Shown here: positions 9,980 to 25,169 of the stretch, piece after piece
Layout: each line of letters opens with the position of its first letter
How positions within the stretch are numbered: the first letter of the stretch is position 1
Source: Candidatus Woesearchaeota archaeon
GTDB taxonomy: Archaea; Nanobdellota; Nanobdellia; Woesearchaeales; JAGVXP01
Reading direction: 5' to 3'
Assembly: GCA_018303725.1 (NCBI GenBank)
Contig: JAGVXP010000034.1
Coordinates: 1 to 38,322, forward strand
DNA length: 38,322 bases
Made by a program: the position numbers and the translations under genes
The notes under the pieces: model-generated
What the model was told of the DNA's origin: nothing
Database searches by the model: none
The model's input: only the letters and a program-made list of their open reading frames with translations

Positions 9980-10447
9980 ATGAAAAAAAGAGCACAAATA
10001 TATCTTCTTGCGCTAATTTTATTACTCTTCCTTATTCCTACTGTTTATGCTGGTTTTTGGAGTAACATCATTGAAAAAATTAGGCCAACAGGAAAAGCCA
10101 CTTACCAAACCGGAAATGAATGCACAGACACAGACAGGATAGATTATCCTGATGAGCTGCAGGAAAACGTAATGGGAAGAACATATGGTACAGAATGGGG
10201 AAATGCCTTTGATAAAACAGATGAATGTGTAACAAGCAATATATTGCGGGAATATTACTGCGCTAGTACCGGAGAAGTTGGCGCTAGTCAATATACCTGT
10301 GCTTACGGCTGCAGGGAAGGCAAATGCTTAGTCGGCGAATGCACAGACACAGACCAGAGCAGGTATAATTATAATATAACTGGAAGAGTATACGGAACAG
10401 CATATAACTGGAAGAGTATACGGAACAGCATATGGAGCTGCTTTTGA
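9980..10447 (+). CDS. Cys-repeat surface protein, 5' part before a frameshift
   Basis: This frame encodes a signal peptide (KKRAQIYLLALILLLFLIP, cleavage near VYA-G at residues 23-25), a mature N-terminus containing IEKIRPTGKAT, and the first Cys repeat (ECTDTD ... YGCREGKC). The second repeat starts at about residue 118 and is cut after VYGTAY: an exact 28-bp tandem duplication (10378-10405 and 10406-10433) shifts the frame, giving 14 aberrant residues and a stop at 10447. With one copy removed, the frame runs on to 13418, giving a protein of 1136 aa. The break may be real (phase variation or decay) or an assembly error in repetitive DNA. TATA at about 9946 makes the mRNA near-leaderless. 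Confidence 0.85.
   Translation: MKKRAQIYLLALILLLFLIPTVYAGFWSNIIEKIRPTGKATYQTGNECTDTDRIDYPDELQENVMGRTYGTEWGNAFDKTDECVTSNILREYYCASTGEVGASQYTCAYGCREGKCLVGECTDTDQSRYNYNITGRVYGTAYNWKSIRNSIWSCF
10307..10405 (+). repeat. 99-bp perfect direct repeat (second copy 12288-12386)
   Basis: The stretch from GGCTGCAGGGAAGG to GCATAT is identical at 10307-10405 and 12288-12386, covering the end of one Cys repeat and the first part of the next. Neighbouring repeats differ at many synonymous sites, so this identity means recent gene conversion, recombination or a misassembly. The first copy ends exactly at the 28-bp duplication, and the second at a 45-bp in-frame loss. Confidence 0.9.
10378..10433 (+). repeat. 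Exact 28-bp tandem duplication causing a frameshift
   Basis: The 28-bp unit beginning AACTGGAAGAGTATACGG occurs back to back at 10378-10405 and 10406-10433 with no mismatch. As 28 is not a multiple of three it moves the reading frame by one. Deleting either copy fuses the two frames exactly, in mid-repeat, at the expected residue (TGRVYGTAY then GAAFDHTDECV). Confidence 0.95.
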
Positions 10448-13418
10448 TCACACAGATGAATGTGTAAGCAGCAATATATTGAGAGAATATTATTGCGCTT
10501 CCAATGGAGATTCTAGCGCTGATGCATATACATGCCAATATGGATGCAACAATGGGAAATGCCAAAATGATTGTGACCCGGATATTACAACTTGCGGCTC
10601 ATGCGGCCATAGCTGGGTATCAAGCGGGGAAACAGCAGCATTTGGGGAGTATAGCGGGATAGATGAGCTGGAATGTTGCGGGGATGATTATGGGGAATAC
10701 TATATTGATGTCGACAAGAACTGCCCAGGCGCAACCGGAAAAACAGCTTGTTGCAATTCTGCAGATGATAAGATAGATGTTAACGGCCGCTGCGTTAGTG
10801 AATGCCCGACCACAACACTACCTCCAACTGGAAATGTATGCACAGACACAGACCAAAGCAGGTATAATTATGATGTTTCTGGAAGAATTTATGGCATTGA
10901 GAATGGAAATCTGATTAACTACACAGACCTATGTTTAACAGATAATATATTGCGGGAATATTATTGCGCTTCCACAGGAGAAGGAGGTGCTGATCAATAT
11001 AATTGCCCATACTTATGCAGAAATGGAAGATGCGTGGTTGCTGAATGCACAGACACAGACCAAAGCAGATACGACTATAATGCAGCTGGAAGAGTGCAGG
11101 GAACAGCATATGGAGCTGCTTTTGATAAAACAGATGAGTGTGTAACAAGCAATATATTGCGGGAATATTACTGCGCTTCCAATGGAGATTCTAGCGCTGA
11201 TGCTTATACATGCCCTTATGGCTGCAGAAATGGTGTCTGTTTGTCAGCTAATGAATGCACAGACACAGACAGAAGCAGGTATAATTATAGTGTTATGGGA
11301 AGAGTTTATGGTATAGAGTTTGGTAATGAATTTGATTATACAGACACATGCGTAGGAGAGAACTTATTGAGAGAATATTATTGCTCAAGCACAGGAGAAG
11401 CAGGAGCTGACCAATATACTTGCCCTTTCACATGTAATAACGGTGCTTGTAACAAATGCACAGACACAGACCAAAGCAGGAATAATTACAATATTACTGG
11501 CAGGGTATACGGCACAGAATGGGGTAATGACTTTGACCACACAGATGAGTGTGTAACAAGCAATATATTGCGGGAATATTATTGCGCTTCCACAGGAGAA
11601 GCTAGCGCTGATGCATATACATGCCCTTACGGCTGCAGAAATGGAAAATGCATTGGTCTTGTTTATACCGGTACAAATGCATGCATCGACACAGACCAGG
11701 GAAAGGATTATGAATCTACTGGCAGGTCATATGGGTTTGAAAATGAAAATTTATTTGACCACACAGATGAGTGTGTAACAAGCAATATATTGAGGGAATA
11801 TTATTGCGCAAGCACAGGAGAAGCCAGTGCTGATGCTTATACATGCCCTTATGGATGCAGGAGCGGAAAATGTGTAGTTGGTGAATGCACAGACACAGAC
11901 CAAAGCAGATACGACTATAACTCAGCTGGAAGAGTACAAGGAACATCATATGGAGCTGCTTTTGACTACACAGACGAATGTGTGGTCGGTACTAATGATA
12001 CACTTAGAGAATATTATTGCGCTTCCAACGGGGATGTTAGCGCTGATGCATATACATGCCCTTATGGGTGTAGTGGCGGAGCTTGTTTAGCAGCAAGTCC
12101 TGGCAGCAGCAATCAATGCACTGATACTGATGGAAGGTATGATTATAATACGGCAGGCAGAACATATGGTATAGAATGGGGCAATGAATTTGATTATACA
12201 GACACATGTGTAGGAGAGAACTTACTGAGAGAATATTATTGCGCTTCCACAGGAGAGGCAGGAGCTGACCAATCTACCTGCACCTATGGCTGCAGGGAAG
12301 GCAAATGCTTAGTCGGCGAATGCACAGACACAGACCAGAGCAGGTATAATTATAATATAACTGGAAGAGTATACGGAACAGCATATTTAAGAGAATATTA
12401 TTGCGCTTCCAATGGAGATTCTAGCGCTGATGCTTATACATGCCAATATGGATGCAGAAATGGATTTTGCGCTCCTTTACCTTACTGCCCGCCAACCTCC
12501 ACTCCGCTTGGCTATCAAGAAACCTTATATATGGAAAGCTCTACAACAGACAAGAACGGGTTATTCTGCACATTATTCAGCTATGGTGATAACGGGCATA
12601 TGAAGATTATACATGTTACTGAAGAAGGCAGAGGCCTTTATTTTGATGTAGAAGGTGCAGCAAGACAAACAAACTTTAATAATTATGCCGGAGTAAGGGA
12701 GTTATGCAGGGCGCTTGCTCCTTTGGACACAAATGATGGCAGCGGAAGAATAGAGTGGAATGCAGGAGGCATCACAGGCATTATAGAATTAGGCTCAGGA
12801 GATGGAGAAGCTTATGATTGCAAACGCTTGATAGAGTATCCAGTAGTTTATTGTGATAATAATTCTATTGTTGGGGATGCTAATGATGACGAAAATATAA
12901 CCTACATAGATGCTGATGTAATTAATGATTTAGCCTCAGGAATAGAAACCAATTATTTGTTTATACCTGAAAACAAATGCTGCATTGATGTCAACAATGA
13001 TGGGGAATTAAATGAAACAGATTCTCAGCTTGTATCTAATTATAACGCCCAAAGCGGGGAAACAGGCAATGTTGGGGAAATATGTTCTGATGTAGTTGTA
13101 GTAAGCTGCAGCAGTTCTTCTATTATAGGAGATGCGAATGGCGATGGAATAATTACGCCAGGAGATGCTCTGATTATAACAAACATTGCGCAAGGAATTG
13201 AGGAAGTGCCAACAAATAAATGCTGCGTTGATGTTGATAATGACGGCGATGTTGATCAGGATGATGGTACAAAGGCTTTCAATTATTATCTAAACACAGG
13301 AAATATAGCTAATGCTGGTTTAGAATGCAGTGAATTGGCTGCTGCTCCCCAGGAAGTGGGGGGAGAAGACAGCGTTTTCCAGAAACTAGTGGAATGGTTT
13401 AACAGCTTATTTGGCTGA
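10407..13418 (+). CDS. Cys-repeat/dockerin-like surface protein, 3' part after the frameshift
   Basis: The frame is open from inside the second duplicate (ACT at 10407); its first start-like codon is TTG 10479. It holds the rest of repeat 2, a separate Cys-rich insert (about 10563-10830), repeats 3-10 of about 65-70 residues each, of pattern CTDTDqSRYnY-GRvYG-FDxTDeCv-LREYYCASTGE-YTCpYGCrnGkC, a unique domain (about 12483-12840), and two dockerin-like segments with calcium-loop patterns GDANDDENITYIDAD and GDANGDGIITPGDA, each followed by a CCxDVxNDGxxxxxD loop. The C-terminal tail is amphipathic (KLVEWFNSLFG) with no TM anchor. Repeat 10 lacks the 15-residue middle block. A secreted, disulfide-rich, calcium-binding envelope or adhesion protein is the likely role. 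Confidence 0.85.
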   Translation, partial: TGRVYGTAYGAAFDHTDECVSSNILREYYCASNGDSSADAYTCQYGCNNGKCQNDCDPDITTCGSCGHSWVSSGETAAFGEYSGIDELECCGDDYGEYYIDVDKNCPGATGKTACCNSADDKIDVNGRCVSECPTTTLPPTGNVCTDTDQSRYNYDVSGRIYGIENGNLINYTDLCLTDNILREYYCASTGEGGADQYNCPYLCRNGRCVVAECTDTDQSRYDYNAAGRVQGTAYGAAFDKTDECVTSNILREYYCASNGDSSADAYTCPYGCRNGVCLSANECTDTDRSRYNYSVMGRVYGIEFGNEFDYTDTCVGENLLREYYCSSTGEAGADQYTCPFTCNNGACNKCTDTDQSRNNYNITGRVYGTEWGNDFDHTDECVTSNILREYYCASTGEASADAYTCPYGCRNGKCIGLVYTGTNACIDTDQGKDYESTGRSYGFENENLFDHTDECVTSNILREYYCASTGEASADAYTCPYGCRSGKCVVGECTDTDQSRYDYNSAGRVQGTSYGAAFDYTDECVVGTNDTLREYYCASNGDVSADAYTCPYGCSGGACLAASPGSSNQCTDTDGRYDYNTAGRTYGIEWGNEFDYTDTCVGENLLREYYCASTGEAGADQSTCTYGCREGKCLVGECTDTDQSRYNYNITGRVYGTAYLREYYCASNGDSSADAYTCQYGCRNGFCAPLPYCPPTSTPLGYQETLYMESSTTDKNGLFCTLFSYGDNGHMKIIHVTEEGRGLYFDVEGAARQTNFNNYAGVRELCRALAPLDTNDGSGRIEWNAGGITGIIELGSGDGEAYDCKRLIEYPVVYCDNNSIVGDANDDENITYIDADVINDLASGIETNYLFIPENKCCIDVNNDGELNETDSQLVSNYNAQSGETGNVGEICSDVVVVSCSSSSIIGDANGDGIITPGDALIITNIAQGIEEVPTNKCCVDVDNDGDVDQDDGTKAFNYYLNTGNIANAGLECSELAAAPQEVGGEDSVFQKLVEWFNSLFG

Positions 13419-21241: not shown

Positions 21242-21449
21242 TGTCAAAAACCACCAGTCACATGTCAGAAATGCGTAGCATTTCTGAGCAAATTGAAAAT
21301 CTGTTTCAAATCAAAGATTTGTAACAGATACCAAAAATGCAAAGCATTTTTCAGTTTCTTTGATTTTCAATTGACTGGTGGCATGTTGCTGAACGCAACA
21401 CTGCATCGTGGTTTTTGAGCATGCTCAGAAACGCTTTGCGTTTCTGACA
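21242..21449. repeat. 208-bp nested multi-hairpin palindromic element
   Basis: Bounded by TGTCA (21242-21246) and TGACA (21445-21449). Outer stem TCAAAAACCAC (21244-21254)/GTGGTTTTTGA (21408-21418), competing with CCACCAGTCA (21251-21260)/TGACTGGTGG (21372-21381). Within lie TCAGAAATGC/GCATTTCTGA (21265-21287, loop GTA); AATTGAAAATC (21291-21301)/GATTTTCAATT (21362-21372) enclosing CTGTTTCAAATC/GATTTGTAACAG (21301-21327) and AAAAATGC/GCATTTTT (21333-21351); TGTTGC/GCAACA (21384-21400). It ends with GAGCATGCTC (21417-21426) and TCAGAAACGC/GCGTTTCTGA (21425-21447, loop TTT). It has no ORF and fills the gap between rpoL and the METTL5-like gene. Confidence 0.85.
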
Positions 21450-21476
21450 TTCTGTTTTCCCGTCGGTAAACCCTTC

Positions 21477-21512
21477 ATTCCCAGCATAGTCCCAATGGGA
21501 ATGGGTGGGACT
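21477..21512. promoter_or_regulatory. Four A(T/G)TCCCA boxes beside the METTL5-like gene
   Basis: ATTCCCA (21477-21483), AGTCCCA (21488-21494), and the reverse forms TGGGAAT (21496-21502) and TGGGACT (21506-21512) are arranged symmetrically, one helical turn (10-11 bp) apart within each pair. They match the array at 22524-22660. They overlap the 3' end of the minus-strand gene by two bases. Confidence 0.6.
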
Positions 21513-22149
21513 ATAGCTTTTCCAGCCTAAAACAGCTGACATCTATCCTATAAATTCTTCTTTTGTGGAACTTTAAACTGGCCTTCAAAGGAAAATCAAA
21601 CTTCCAGATATGGCTCACTTTGTAATTTTTGTCCTTTGCGAAGCTTTCAATAAACTTTTTGCTCTCACTTTTATGGAAACTGTAAATTACAGGCGCTAAG
21701 CTAACAGCCTTTTCCAAGAAACCCCTGTCCGCATGTCTCACTTTTACCCCAAAAGGTGGATTTTCCAAAACAACATCAACTTTCTCGTTAAAATTAGTTA
21801 TATCCTGGCATAAGAAAACCCCATCCCCTAACTCTGAACTCTCACTTTTAATTTTTTGCCAATTTTCCTTAGCTGTTTCCAAAGCCACCTGATCAGAATC
21901 CACAAAATACACTCTTTTTGCCCCTAAAAGCAAGGCACCTATACCAACTATGCCTGTACCACACCCTAGGTCAACACTCACTTTTCCTTTTATATCCCCT
22001 AATAGTGCGGCATTATATAATACACTAGCACCAACCTCACTATCCATACTATACTGCTCAACTCTCACTTTTGGCTGATCAAAGACTTTGAGCTTAGAAA
22101 GCAAAATAGCAAGCCCTGATTTTGATAAAAACCCTATCTTTTTAGCCAT
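21511..22149 (-). CDS. METTL5-like RNA methyltransferase (COG2263 type)
   Basis: The 212-aa class I methyltransferase has SAM loop VDLGCGTGIVGIGAL (59-73), strand-2 acidic YFVDSD, and the catalytic ENPPFGVKVRHADRGFLEKA (129-148). NPPFG followed by HADR is diagnostic for the METTL5/COG2263 group, which makes m6A in rRNA (18S in eukaryotes). The N-terminus KSGLAILLSKLKVFDQPKVR, then EQYSMDSEVGAS, also fits. It acts on rRNA in the cytoplasm by family analogy. It is a single minus-strand gene flanked on both sides by palindromic elements. Confidence 0.93.
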   Translation of the reverse strand: MAKKIGFLSKSGLAILLSKLKVFDQPKVRVEQYSMDSEVGASVLYNAALLGDIKGKVSVDLGCGTGIVGIGALLLGAKRVYFVDSDQVALETAKENWQKIKSESSELGDGVFLCQDITNFNEKVDVVLENPPFGVKVRHADRGFLEKAVSLAPVIYSFHKSESKKFIESFAKDKNYKVSHIWKFDFPLKASLKFHKRRIYRIDVSCFRLEKL

Positions 22150-22163
22150 TTTTAACCCTCACT

Positions 22164-22217
22164 TGTCAAAAACCTTCGGTTTTTGAGCATGCTCAGAAAT
22201 CCTGCGGATTTCTGACA
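22164..22217. repeat. Double-hairpin palindromic element 2 (minimal form)
   Basis: TGTCA opens at 22164. TCAAAAACC (22166-22174)/GGTTTTTGA (22178-22186) has loop TTC. GCATGC (22187-22192) follows. TCAGAAATCC (22193-22202)/GGATTTCTGA (22206-22215) has loop TGC, and TGACA closes at 22213-22217. This is the cleanest copy of the family: two hairpins joined by a palindromic hexamer. Confidence 0.8.
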
Positions 22218-22316
22218 TTTAGATTAAAATACCACAATATTGCGGCTTATTAAACCCGAAATCTCACCTTATTTTTACAGCTAATATCTTACTTTTTATT
22301 AACCTTTTTCTTTTGC

Positions 22317-22523: not shown

Positions 22524-22660
22524 ATTCCCATCATATTCCCAATACTATCCCACAATAGTCCTACTATTTAAACTTTTCTCTTCCAACAATAGTCCCAATA
22601 TAGTCCTATAACATTCCCAAAATAGTCCCAAAAAACGAAATATTTATATAGGTTGGGACT
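22524..22660 (+). promoter_or_regulatory. Helically phased array of A(T/G)TCCCA operator boxes before a TATA box
   Basis: Boxes begin at 22524 (ATTCCCA), 22535 (ATTCCCA), 22546 (TATCCCA), 22557 (AGTCCTA), then, after a degenerate interval of 34 bp, 22591 (AGTCCCA), 22602 (AGTCCTA), 22613 (ATTCCCA) and 22624 (AGTCCCA). The spacing is exactly 11 bp within each block of four. The TATA box TATTTATATA follows at 22641-22650, then a reversed copy TGGGACT at 22654-22660, and the ATG of the coiled-coil gene at 22676. All boxes fall on about one face of the helix, pointing to cooperative binding of an oligomeric regulator. Confidence 0.8.
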
Positions 22661-22675
22661 AACAATAACACTAAA

Positions 22676-23338
22676 ATGATATTTTTCTTAAGAAAAAAAC
22701 AAAAAACAGAATTACAGTTAGCCAGTCTTAGGAATATATTAGCAGCTTCTTTTGCTAATGTTAGAAGGGACACAAACACAATATTCCAATGGCTTAACTT
22801 CCTATACCAGCAAAACATGGAGCAGCAGCAGACAATAGCCAATCTGGATAGCGAGCTATCAAAAATACCAAAAGACAAGGAAGACTTCAAAAGGATCATA
22901 GATGATATCTACTCCTTTGAGGACATCTCATCCAGGATAGACAGTCTCAACATGAGACTAGACCAACTTTCTCGACGAGATATAGTCCCAGCTGGGACTG
23001 AGACTGGGACTCTGCCAGCTACCCATAAGCGCTTAGAAGAGCTCCATAATAGGCTTGAAAAACTGGAAGAAAAGAAGCAGACAATAAAGGAAAAATTAAT
23101 GAAAAAGATAACAAGAAATTCAAAAGAATATGCCAAAACCATCATACTTTCCTACATCAAAAAATACGAAAAAATATCAGCTTTGCAGCTAAAAGAAATG
23201 CTGGTTGATGAGCAGGCTTTATGCTCAAAGAGCTCATTTTACAGGCTCTTGGAAGAGATCGAATCTTTAGGGGATATAGCTGTAATAAAAAAAGGCAAAG
23301 AGAAACATTATATTTCAAAAATCTCAAAAACCACATAG
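22676..23338 (+). CDS. Coiled-coil protein with C-terminal winged-helix-like domain
   Basis: The 220-aa protein has a basic N-terminus (FFLRKKQKTE), a long helical region (about 12-155) with coiled-coil heptads (HKRLEELHNRLEKLEEKKQT), and a C-terminal helix-turn-helix-like domain (about 156-215: TIILSYIKKYEKISALQLKE, SSFYRLLEEIESLGDIAVIK) resembling archaeal winged helices. It is probably an oligomeric DNA-binding regulator. The 11-bp phased array ends 15 nt before its ATG, and three more boxes lie inside the gene (22984-23011), so autoregulation is likely but inferred. Its last codons and stop (TAG 23336) lie inside a palindromic element. Confidence 0.75.
   Translation: MIFFLRKKQKTELQLASLRNILAASFANVRRDTNTIFQWLNFLYQQNMEQQQTIANLDSELSKIPKDKEDFKRIIDDIYSFEDISSRIDSLNMRLDQLSRRDIVPAGTETGTLPATHKRLEELHNRLEKLEEKKQTIKEKLMKKITRNSKEYAKTIILSYIKKYEKISALQLKEMLVDEQALCSKSSFYRLLEEIESLGDIAVIKKGKEKHYISKISKTT
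22984..23011 (+). promoter_or_regulatory. Three A(T/G)TCCCA boxes inside the coiled-coil gene
   Basis: AGTCCCA (22984-22990), TGGGACT (22993-22999) and TGGGACT (23005-23011) lie within the linker encoding IVPAGTETGTLPA. The first two form a palindrome with a 2-bp gap; the last two are 12 bp apart. Such density is not needed by the peptide sequence. Confidence 0.5.
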
Positions 23339-23383
23339 TGGTTTTTGATGATGCTCAGAGACAAAGTTTTTTGTCTTTGACAT
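23324..23383. repeat. Double-hairpin palindromic element 3, overlapping a stop codon
   Basis: TCAAAAACCAC (23324-23334)/GTGGTTTTTGA (23338-23348), loop ATA; TGATGC linker; TCAGAGACAAA (23355-23365)/TTTGTCTTTGA (23370-23380) with one G-T pair; TGACA end (23378-23382). The element supplies the last residues (SKTT) and stop codon of the coiled-coil gene. Confidence 0.75.
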
Positions 23384-23462: not shown

Positions 23463-24002
23463 ATGATCACACAAAAGAGGGAGCTATCTTCTAACGATAA
23501 CTCTATATACAGGATTAAGAGGTTTATTGACGAGGTTAACGAGCAATTTGAGGATCATTTGCAGGCAATTAACGAAAATACAAATGAAATAGAGTCCAAT
23601 TACGAGCTTTTATCAGACTTAAACAACAAAATAGACAAAATAAGCGAAAGATTGGAAAAGATTGAGCTATTTTTGCATGAAAAAGCCAATTTTAACCTGG
23701 AAGAAAAGCAGGAATTTAGTATAGAGCCCCTAACAAAAAGGGAAAAAGAGGTTTTCTTGATACTTTACACATTAGAAGAAACAAAGGACTATGTTACCTA
23801 CCTCGATATAGCAAAGAGAACAGGCCTGACAGAAGACTTAGTATCTAGCTATATAAAAAGTTTGATAGATAAAGATATTCCTATACTAAAAAAATACATA
23901 AATGGAAAGGCCCATTTAAGGCTTAATGCTGCTTTTAAAACATTGCAGGCAAAGGAAAACATCCTGCAGATAGAGCAAAGAACAATAATAACTTCATTTT
24001 AA
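23463..24002 (+). CDS. Coiled-coil protein with HTH domain, second copy of the architecture
   Basis: The 179-aa protein has an N-terminal helical and coiled-coil half (IYRIKRFIDEVNEQFEDHLQ, NNKIDKISERLEKIELFLHE) and a C-terminal HTH, LTKREKEVFLILYTLEETKD then YLDIAKRTGLTEDLVSSYIK, which resembles LuxR/sigma-4-type or winged helices. The layout is the same as the gene at 22676, though the sequences differ. ATG 23463 is chosen because GGGGGTG (23449-23455) is 7 nt upstream; an ATG at 23458 reads straight into a stop. ATTTAAATAAC near 23420-23430 is the TATA box, so it has its own promoter. Probable DNA-binding regulator. Confidence 0.75.
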   Translation: MITQKRELSSNDNSIYRIKRFIDEVNEQFEDHLQAINENTNEIESNYELLSDLNNKIDKISERLEKIELFLHEKANFNLEEKQEFSIEPLTKREKEVFLILYTLEETKDYVTYLDIAKRTGLTEDLVSSYIKSLIDKDIPILKKYINGKAHLRLNAAFKTLQAKENILQIEQRTIITSF

Positions 24003-24477: not shown

Positions 24478-24515
24478 ATTTTAGATATTTTCCATCAGAA
24501 AAAGAGGTTTTGTTA

Positions 24516-25169
24516 ATGGCTAAAAAATTCAATGAATATTATCTCAACTGGGATGAAATAAACCAAATCATAGCAGCTGCTAAAAATCTGAAAGAAAGCC
24601 TTGTTCTGAAGATATTAGCAAGAACAGGCATGCGTAGATTTGAGCTTTCTAAGCTTGAAGCTAAAGATGTTGATTTTGAAAGAAAAAGGCTTTTCATAAA
24701 AAAAGGTAAGGGAGCAACTGAAAAAGACCCAAAATCCAGGGCAGTTCCAATAGATGATGATACCCTACAGACCATCAAATTCTACTTAGGAAGCCGTAAA
24801 ACAGGCTTTCTCGTACAAAGCAATAAAAAGAGCCATGATGGCATATCCTTAAGCCAGATCAATAGGATAGTGTCTAATTGCGCTAAAAGAGCCAATGTCA
24901 AGAACCCCAATCCTAAGCTCAAGAACATGAACCCCCACATATTTCGCCATAGCTTCTCAAGGCTCAGCCTAGCAGCTGGAATTCCATTTAATATGGTCCA
25001 AAGAATAGCTGGCCATGCTGATGCTAGGACAACCCTACAGATGTATGGTGTTCCTTCTATAACAGATACGCAGCAGTTATATGATGAAAAGTTAGTGGAT
25101 AAGTTCCAAGAAAAATCAAAGAACAAAAGCAATGCCAAGCTGACTGATTTTACAGGTAAAAGTGAGTAA
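24516..25169 (+). CDS. Short tyrosine recombinase (XerC/D-like)
   Basis: The 217-aa protein is a tyrosine-recombinase catalytic domain. Visible active-site residues are R40 in ARTGMRRFEL, a basic beta-hairpin IKKGKGATEKDPKSR with the Lys, H141 and R144 in HIFRHS, H167 in GHAD and Y177 in TTLQMYG. It lacks the usual N-terminal SAM-like core-binding domain of about 90 residues (XerA/XerD are about 280-300 aa). ATG 24516 follows GAGGT (24505-24509); a TTG at 24510 is not needed. It could resolve chromosome dimers or move an element. No tRNA or clear att pair is beside it. Its TATA box is inside an inverted repeat. Confidence 0.9.
   Translation: MAKKFNEYYLNWDEINQIIAAAKNLKESLVLKILARTGMRRFELSKLEAKDVDFERKRLFIKKGKGATEKDPKSRAVPIDDDTLQTIKFYLGSRKTGFLVQSNKKSHDGISLSQINRIVSNCAKRANVKNPNPKLKNMNPHIFRHSFSRLSLAAGIPFNMVQRIAGHADARTTLQMYGVPSITDTQQLYDEKLVDKFQEKSKNKSNAKLTDFTGKSE

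Follow-up and report, generated by a model that had tools for sequence, protein, structure and literature searches.

A phased array of 11-bp-spaced boxes beside a coiled-coil winged-helix gene as a candidate centromere-like site of Woesearchaeales

The locus analysed here raises the question of what is served by a run of short sequence boxes set 11 bp apart beside a gene for a predicted coiled-coil winged-helix protein, and whether an operator of that gene, as which the initial annotation had read the run, is a sufficient description of it. The window, i.e., the whole stretch of DNA that was analysed, comprises 38,322 nucleotides of contig JAGVXP010000034.1 (assembly GCA_018303725.1) from Candidatus Woesearchaeota archaeon. 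The array and the genes around it are the following:

21511 to 22149, reverse strand: methyltransferase gene on the far side of the array, a neighbour in 31 of 40 loci
22524 to 22563, forward strand: block 1 of the array, ATTCCCA (start 22524), ATTCCCA (22535), TATCCCA (22546) and AGTCCTA (22557) in 11-bp steps
22591 to 22630, forward strand: block 2 of the array, AGTCCCA (start 22591), AGTCCTA (22602), ATTCCCA (22613) and AGTCCCA (22624) in 11-bp steps
22636 to 22650, forward strand: CGAAATATTTATATA, the BRE/TATA-like promoter of gene1; a motif of this CGAAATATTTAAATA-like type comes after many of the arrays
22654 to 22660, reverse strand: reversed box TGGGACT just past the TATA box
22676 to 23338, forward strand: gene1 (220 aa), whose product has a long coiled coil at the N terminus, a linker and a winged helix at the C terminus; the proposed box binder
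23463 to 24002, forward strand: gene2 (179 aa), coiled coil and winged helix; a widespread partner gene of the phylum
24510 to 25169, forward strand: XerA-like tyrosine recombinase (catalytic domain); such a gene occurs among the neighbours in 26 of 40 loci

Both blocks of four boxes, with their exact 11-bp spacing, were recovered at the positions given by the initial annotation. Five of the eight boxes match A(T/G)TCCCA exactly, the deviants being TATCCCA at 22546 and AGTCCTA at 22557 and 22602. The step from the last box of block 1 to the first box of block 2 is 34 bp, and the final box ends at 22630, upstream of the BRE/TATA-like motif. The claim that such phasing exceeds chance was confirmed, since the 150-bp region contains six pairs of boxes 11 bp apart and none of 20,000 dinucleotide shuffles contained more than two (18,577 without a pair, 1,377 with one, 46 with two). 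A search of the host assembly (1.30 Mb, 62 contigs) with a three-box pattern, one mismatch being allowed, gave matches at the window array only. The further suggestion that a regulator covers one face of the promoter needs correction. The DNA helix has about 10.5 bp per turn, so that 11-bp steps drift by about 17 degrees per box and the boxes trace a slow helical path.

Beyond the window, a box cluster was found at gene1 in all 40 loci examined across Woesearchaeales, each of which encodes both gene1 and gene2, and the expectation that orthologs would carry a phased array was thereby borne out. Sixteen of the 40 loci had been chosen solely by DNA match to a strict three-box pattern, and gene1 and gene2 were present at all 16. 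When the 40 arrays were pooled, 245 box pairs were exactly 11 bp apart compared with 3.75 expected, with additional peaks at 22, 33, 44, 55, 66, and 77 bp. Gaps between blocks, which in many arrays hold TTTATCGTCGATAAA or a variant of it, measure mostly 22, 33-35, 44-45 or 54-55 bp; these values are near multiples of 11, and the register is therefore largely preserved across the gaps. The density of phased boxes was 6.5 per kb at distances of up to 480 bp from gene1, compared with 0.047 per kb outside that range (approximately 140-fold), as calculated for 67 named loci that were retrieved separately and overlap with the 40-locus set. Some loci (L048, L047) have few boxes or boxes of mixed orientation. 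Two loci carrying the Woesearchaeota-type module are labelled Patescibacteria (L147, JAHILT010000040.1) and Aenigmatarchaeota (L174, JACQIC010000082.1), labels that are probably binning errors.

The strict pattern was also searched in 288 genomes. Among the matches listed, clusters of overlapping matches lay at gene1 in the 22 genomes that were checkable, and the other clusters were perfect simple repeats only (in G106, G202, G207 and contig C10 of G148). A regulon was rejected on this basis because, simple repeats aside, clusters of the TCCCA array among the matches listed occur at gene1 only. Among these matches the TCCCA-type arrays occupy one locus per genome; a centromere-like site would be expected at a single locus or a few loci per chromosome, bound by a dedicated protein. 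For the f38 family, in which the box is TCCGGAC, 14 genomes were searched for CCGGAC pairs. Nine of them had matches, and in the seven of these nine with a known gene1 position every match was located at gene1 and none elsewhere. Seven genomes have gene2 far off or on another contig; their gene1 loci carry 7-10 boxes and their gene2 loci none of these boxes. As the boxes remain at gene1 when gene2 is apart, the 220-aa protein is favoured as the predicted binder over the 179-aa protein, the other candidate that the initial annotation had named, which is disfavoured.

AlphaFold models both proteins with a long helix (coiled coil) at the N terminus and a winged helix at the C terminus. Fold, solved-structure and sequence searches with gene1 and gene2 returned generic coiled-coil or winged-helix (helix-turn-helix) relatives only. 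Matches to gene1 were obtained in 68 of 145 genomes of the same order by a single-sequence search, with relatives mostly named Candidatus Woesearchaeota, and gene1 was detected in 107 of 279 genomes at the thresholds used. Of 279 genomes of the phylum, 215 gave a match to gene2, which is the better conserved of the two genes and nearly always single copy. An oligomeric protein, as had been proposed before, is the likely mode of occupation of the array, and a partner of the predicted coiled-coil winged-helix type is present to provide it.

The position of the array relative to gene1 varies between lineages. In five genomes (G008, G090, G010, G051, G110) gene1 is inverted with respect to the genes around it, and the array is found past its 3' end, keeping to the side of the methyltransferase or 182-aa neighbour where present. 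On the gene2 tree this inversion needs three changes (three lineages, five genomes), although a single origin is formally conceivable. Where these lineages retain the methyltransferase gene next to the array, the array might still act on that gene. The box itself also differs, with TCCCA, TCCGGAC, AGTCTCA, and GTTTAAAC-like families seen and the array layout kept. The TCCGGAC boxes of the f38 family are located in the stretch of gene1 that encodes the linker and immediately 3' of it. Their 11-bp steps within the gene are not divisible by three, which points to a constraint on the DNA and not to a protein repeat. In the f106 family GTTTAAAC-like and AACAGCTGTT-like boxes are found upstream of gene1 and, in 12-bp steps, in the linker, and these linker-coding boxes could be partly a protein repeat. 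At four loci of other families (L204, L205, L213, L215) the gene1 boxes are indistinct or of other kinds.

The winged-helix segment of gene1 reads CSKSSFYR in proteins accompanying TCCCA boxes, CSKASFYR or CSKATFYR with AGTCTCA and CGRTAFYD with TCCGGAC, and GTTTAAAC-like boxes accompany a different helix-turn-helix. Box sequence and putative recognition helix appear to change together, a correlation across few families that is not proof of contact. The C-terminal domain of gene1 in f106 (L206-L214) is closer to the gene2-type helix-turn-helix than to the gene1 domain of the order, which suggests that its DNA-binding domain may have been swapped.

Two additional box clusters within 1.2 kb of the array (21456-21512 and 22968-23011) were missed by the initial annotation and consist of the following features, to the palindromic ones and the clusters of which no single strand is assigned:

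21456 to 21470: palindrome-like TTTCCCGTCGGTAAA adjoining the second box cluster
21477 to 21512: second box cluster at the methyltransferase gene 3' end, with boxes on the forward strand at 21477 and 21488 and on the reverse strand at 21496 and 21506
22968 to 22982: palindrome TTTCTCGACGAGATA within gene1, the best TTTMTCGWCGAKAAA match in the whole assembly
22984 to 23011: three further boxes in the linker-coding part of gene1 (AGTCCCA, TGGGACT, TGGGACT)

Each cluster has a TCGTCGA-type palindrome, and these are the sole two CGTCG/CGACG sites of the 38-kb window; CGTCG or CGACG occurs in 23 of the 40 array regions of the order-wide loci. Boxes within the gene as a rule for the TCCCA families were not supported, the density being 4.1 per kb in gene1 vs. 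3.3 in gene2. The gene1 coding sequence of these families is thus not generally enriched in boxes, and the in-gene cluster of the window is atypical among them. As a separate observation, three partly diverged copies of a hairpin-forming repeat, GGTTTTTGAGCATGCTCAGAAA...TTTCTGAC (21410-21450, 22178-22220, and 23340-23362), surround the methyltransferase gene and gene1. Nested inverted repeats lie at 21250-21410, and the element looks like a small dispersed palindromic repeat.

A recurrent gene order was observed across families, namely uppS, the 182-aa gene, AMMECR1, rpoL, the methyltransferase gene, the array, gene1, gene2, often XerA, and PAC2. The recurrence of this neighbourhood indicates that the locus belongs to the chromosomal core, and a mobile element is disfavoured by it and by the finding of no plasmid match. 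The ParB_N domain (PF02195) was found in none of 12 genomes and in 10 of 14 controls, SMC was found in all 12 genomes tested, and no ParA-, ParM- or TubZ-like motor was present among the recurrent neighbours of the 40 loci. Elsewhere in the window (9980-13418), a 979-aa ORF encodes a protein of cysteine-rich repeats with a dockerin-type domain and is preceded by a 155-aa ORF with the same repeat, and the break between the two near 10447-10479 may be a frameshift or an assembly error.

The explanation that we favour, with a probability of roughly 0.55, is that the array is a centromere-like nucleoprotein cis site in the manner of parC or parS, with autorepression of gene1 as a side effect. The proposal follows from the combination of a dedicated protein, one site at its own gene, no detected regulon, a register kept over 100-300 bp and a persistence of the array that is independent of the promoter. 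Further points in its favour are SMC without ParB_N in the 12 genomes, the frequent XerA-like neighbours and the orc1/cdc6 gene close to the pair in four f106 genomes. Phasing, conservation, restriction to the locus, association with gene1 and the change of the box were read from the sequences, and in the mechanism that we infer from them the gene1 product would bind each box via its C-terminal winged helix, and adjacent copies would join by their N-terminal coiled coils. A superhelical protein-DNA complex would result over 100-300 bp, in which the boxes would hold one helical register, and which in most genomes would cover the gene1 promoter and so repress gene1. The complex would serve mainly to maintain the chromosome, in segregation, anchoring or the handling of sisters, with the gene2 product, XerA, and SMC as possible helpers.

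By membership tests the array system belongs to none of ParMRC, ParABS, SegAB, and AspA-ParBA, each of which it resembles in part. In the ParMRC systems of plasmids R1, pB171, and pSK41, the promoter of the partition genes carries direct repeats of about 10-11 bp, to which ParR binds cooperatively to form a segrosome, and autoregulation has been reported for pSK41 (PMC4911067, PMC9426499). For R1 parC, a 1994 paper by Dam and Gerdes (cited in PMC9426499) names in its title ten direct repeats flanking the promoter. The likeness lies in phased direct repeats of about 10-11 bp pitch adjoining the system's own gene. However, ParR is usually a ribbon-helix-helix protein and works with the actin-like ParM, whereas the gene1 model is a coiled coil with a winged helix and no recurrent neighbour of the 40 loci was recognised as actin-like; moreover, those systems are plasmid-borne and the array here is chromosomal. 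AspA of Sulfolobus pNOB8 is a winged-helix protein that binds upstream of its own gene and spreads as a helix on the DNA (PMC5120986). The fold search with gene2 gave a weak match to AspA-DNA (5k5o), and the array shares with AspA an archaeal winged-helix protein and a site upstream of its own gene; the AspA site, in contrast, is one 23-bp palindrome in front of an operon with parB and parA, whereas phased direct repeats and no ParB or ParA neighbour are found here. In SegAB, a chromosomal system of Sulfolobus and other archaea, the recognition sites of the DNA-binding protein lie upstream of the cassette that encodes it (PMC5120986, PMC11381335). The locus is likewise archaeal and chromosomal with sites at its own cassette, but SegB sites are palindromic and segB always follows the ParA-like segA, and no such ATPase recurs among the neighbours here. 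ParABS has few or single chromosomal site regions with a dedicated protein, as would hold here for the predicted binding; yet parS is a 16-bp palindrome and not an 11-bp phased array, and the 12 genomes gave no ParB_N.

The strongest rival is an operator and nothing else, through which the gene1 product would repress its own promoter by cooperative binding to the phased boxes. In most genomes the array directly adjoins the gene1 promoter, as would be expected of an operator, and this counts against the centromere-like reading. So do the detection of gene1 in no more than 107 of 279 genomes at the thresholds used, the lack of a motor gene among the recurrent neighbours of the 40 loci, the loci with few or mixed-orientation boxes, and the role that the array might have for the methyltransferase gene in the inverted lineages. 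In the window the array lies just upstream of the BRE/TATA-like element, and the reversed box after the TATA box fits an operator too. What is not supported is the operator as the whole account. Both the five genomes with inverted gene1 (three changes on the tree) and the TCCGGAC family have their boxes within gene1 or on its 3' side, and the array is therefore not simply an operator. In addition, an order-wide transcription factor with no detected target except itself would be unusual, and eight to twenty boxes exceed the need of simple repression. We consider autoregulation alone unlikely; the original observation holds, and its reading as an operator, partly supported, is too narrow.

A replication origin, with the boxes as iterons and gene1 as an initiator or origin-binding protein, is clearly less probable still. 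Iteron arrays with an adjacent initiator occur in plasmids and offer a parallel, and in four of five f106 genomes (L206, L207, L208, L209) the gene1/gene2 pair is 3-9 kb from the only orc1/cdc6 gene found. However, both orc1/cdc6 genes lie far from the locus or on other contigs in ten genomes from the order of the window, GC skew in three genomes gave no clear signal pointing to the locus, and domain searches with gene1 and gene2 detected no ATPase or replication domain. In the four f106 genomes gene1/gene2, orc1/cdc6 and sometimes XerA form a compact genome-maintenance hub.

We regard as very improbable that the array is an accessory site of XerA, at which the complex would pair sister sites for dimer resolution at a nearby dif. 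Crenarchaeal dif sites are close to xerA (PMC2958812), a parallel to the XerA-like neighbour in 26 of the 40 loci, and XerA-like genes occur near the gene1/gene2 pair in other families too. Against this, the neighbours examined include no XerA-like gene in 14 of the 40 loci, and a simple scan for dif-like 11-6/7/8-11 inverted repeats revealed none common to the loci. Chance or a functionless simple-sequence repeat, to which an AT-rich region and short single boxes might lend themselves, is refuted for practical purposes by the shuffles, the approximately 140-fold local enrichment and the place and phasing kept across families.

Returning to the centromere-like reading, a broader version of it, to which we would give slightly less than even odds, is that Woesearchaeales and, with other boxes, much of the class have their chromosomal centromere in this array. 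The locus would then represent a new coiled-coil winged-helix segregation system distinct from ParB and SegB, in which binder and boxes change specificity together and the boxes may lie inside the binder's own gene.

In the literature searched, no description was found of how chromosomes are segregated or organised in this class of the DPANN archaea. A conserved single locus with a dedicated, predicted DNA-binding protein, the partner gene2 and a frequent XerA is a concrete candidate for the missing site, and is of particular interest given the twelve genomes in which ParB was not found and SMC is present. The families with differing boxes provide a natural series for following the joint change of a binding protein and its site. 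The array is thus a strong candidate for the group's centromere-like chromosome-handling site, to which the gene1 protein probably binds.
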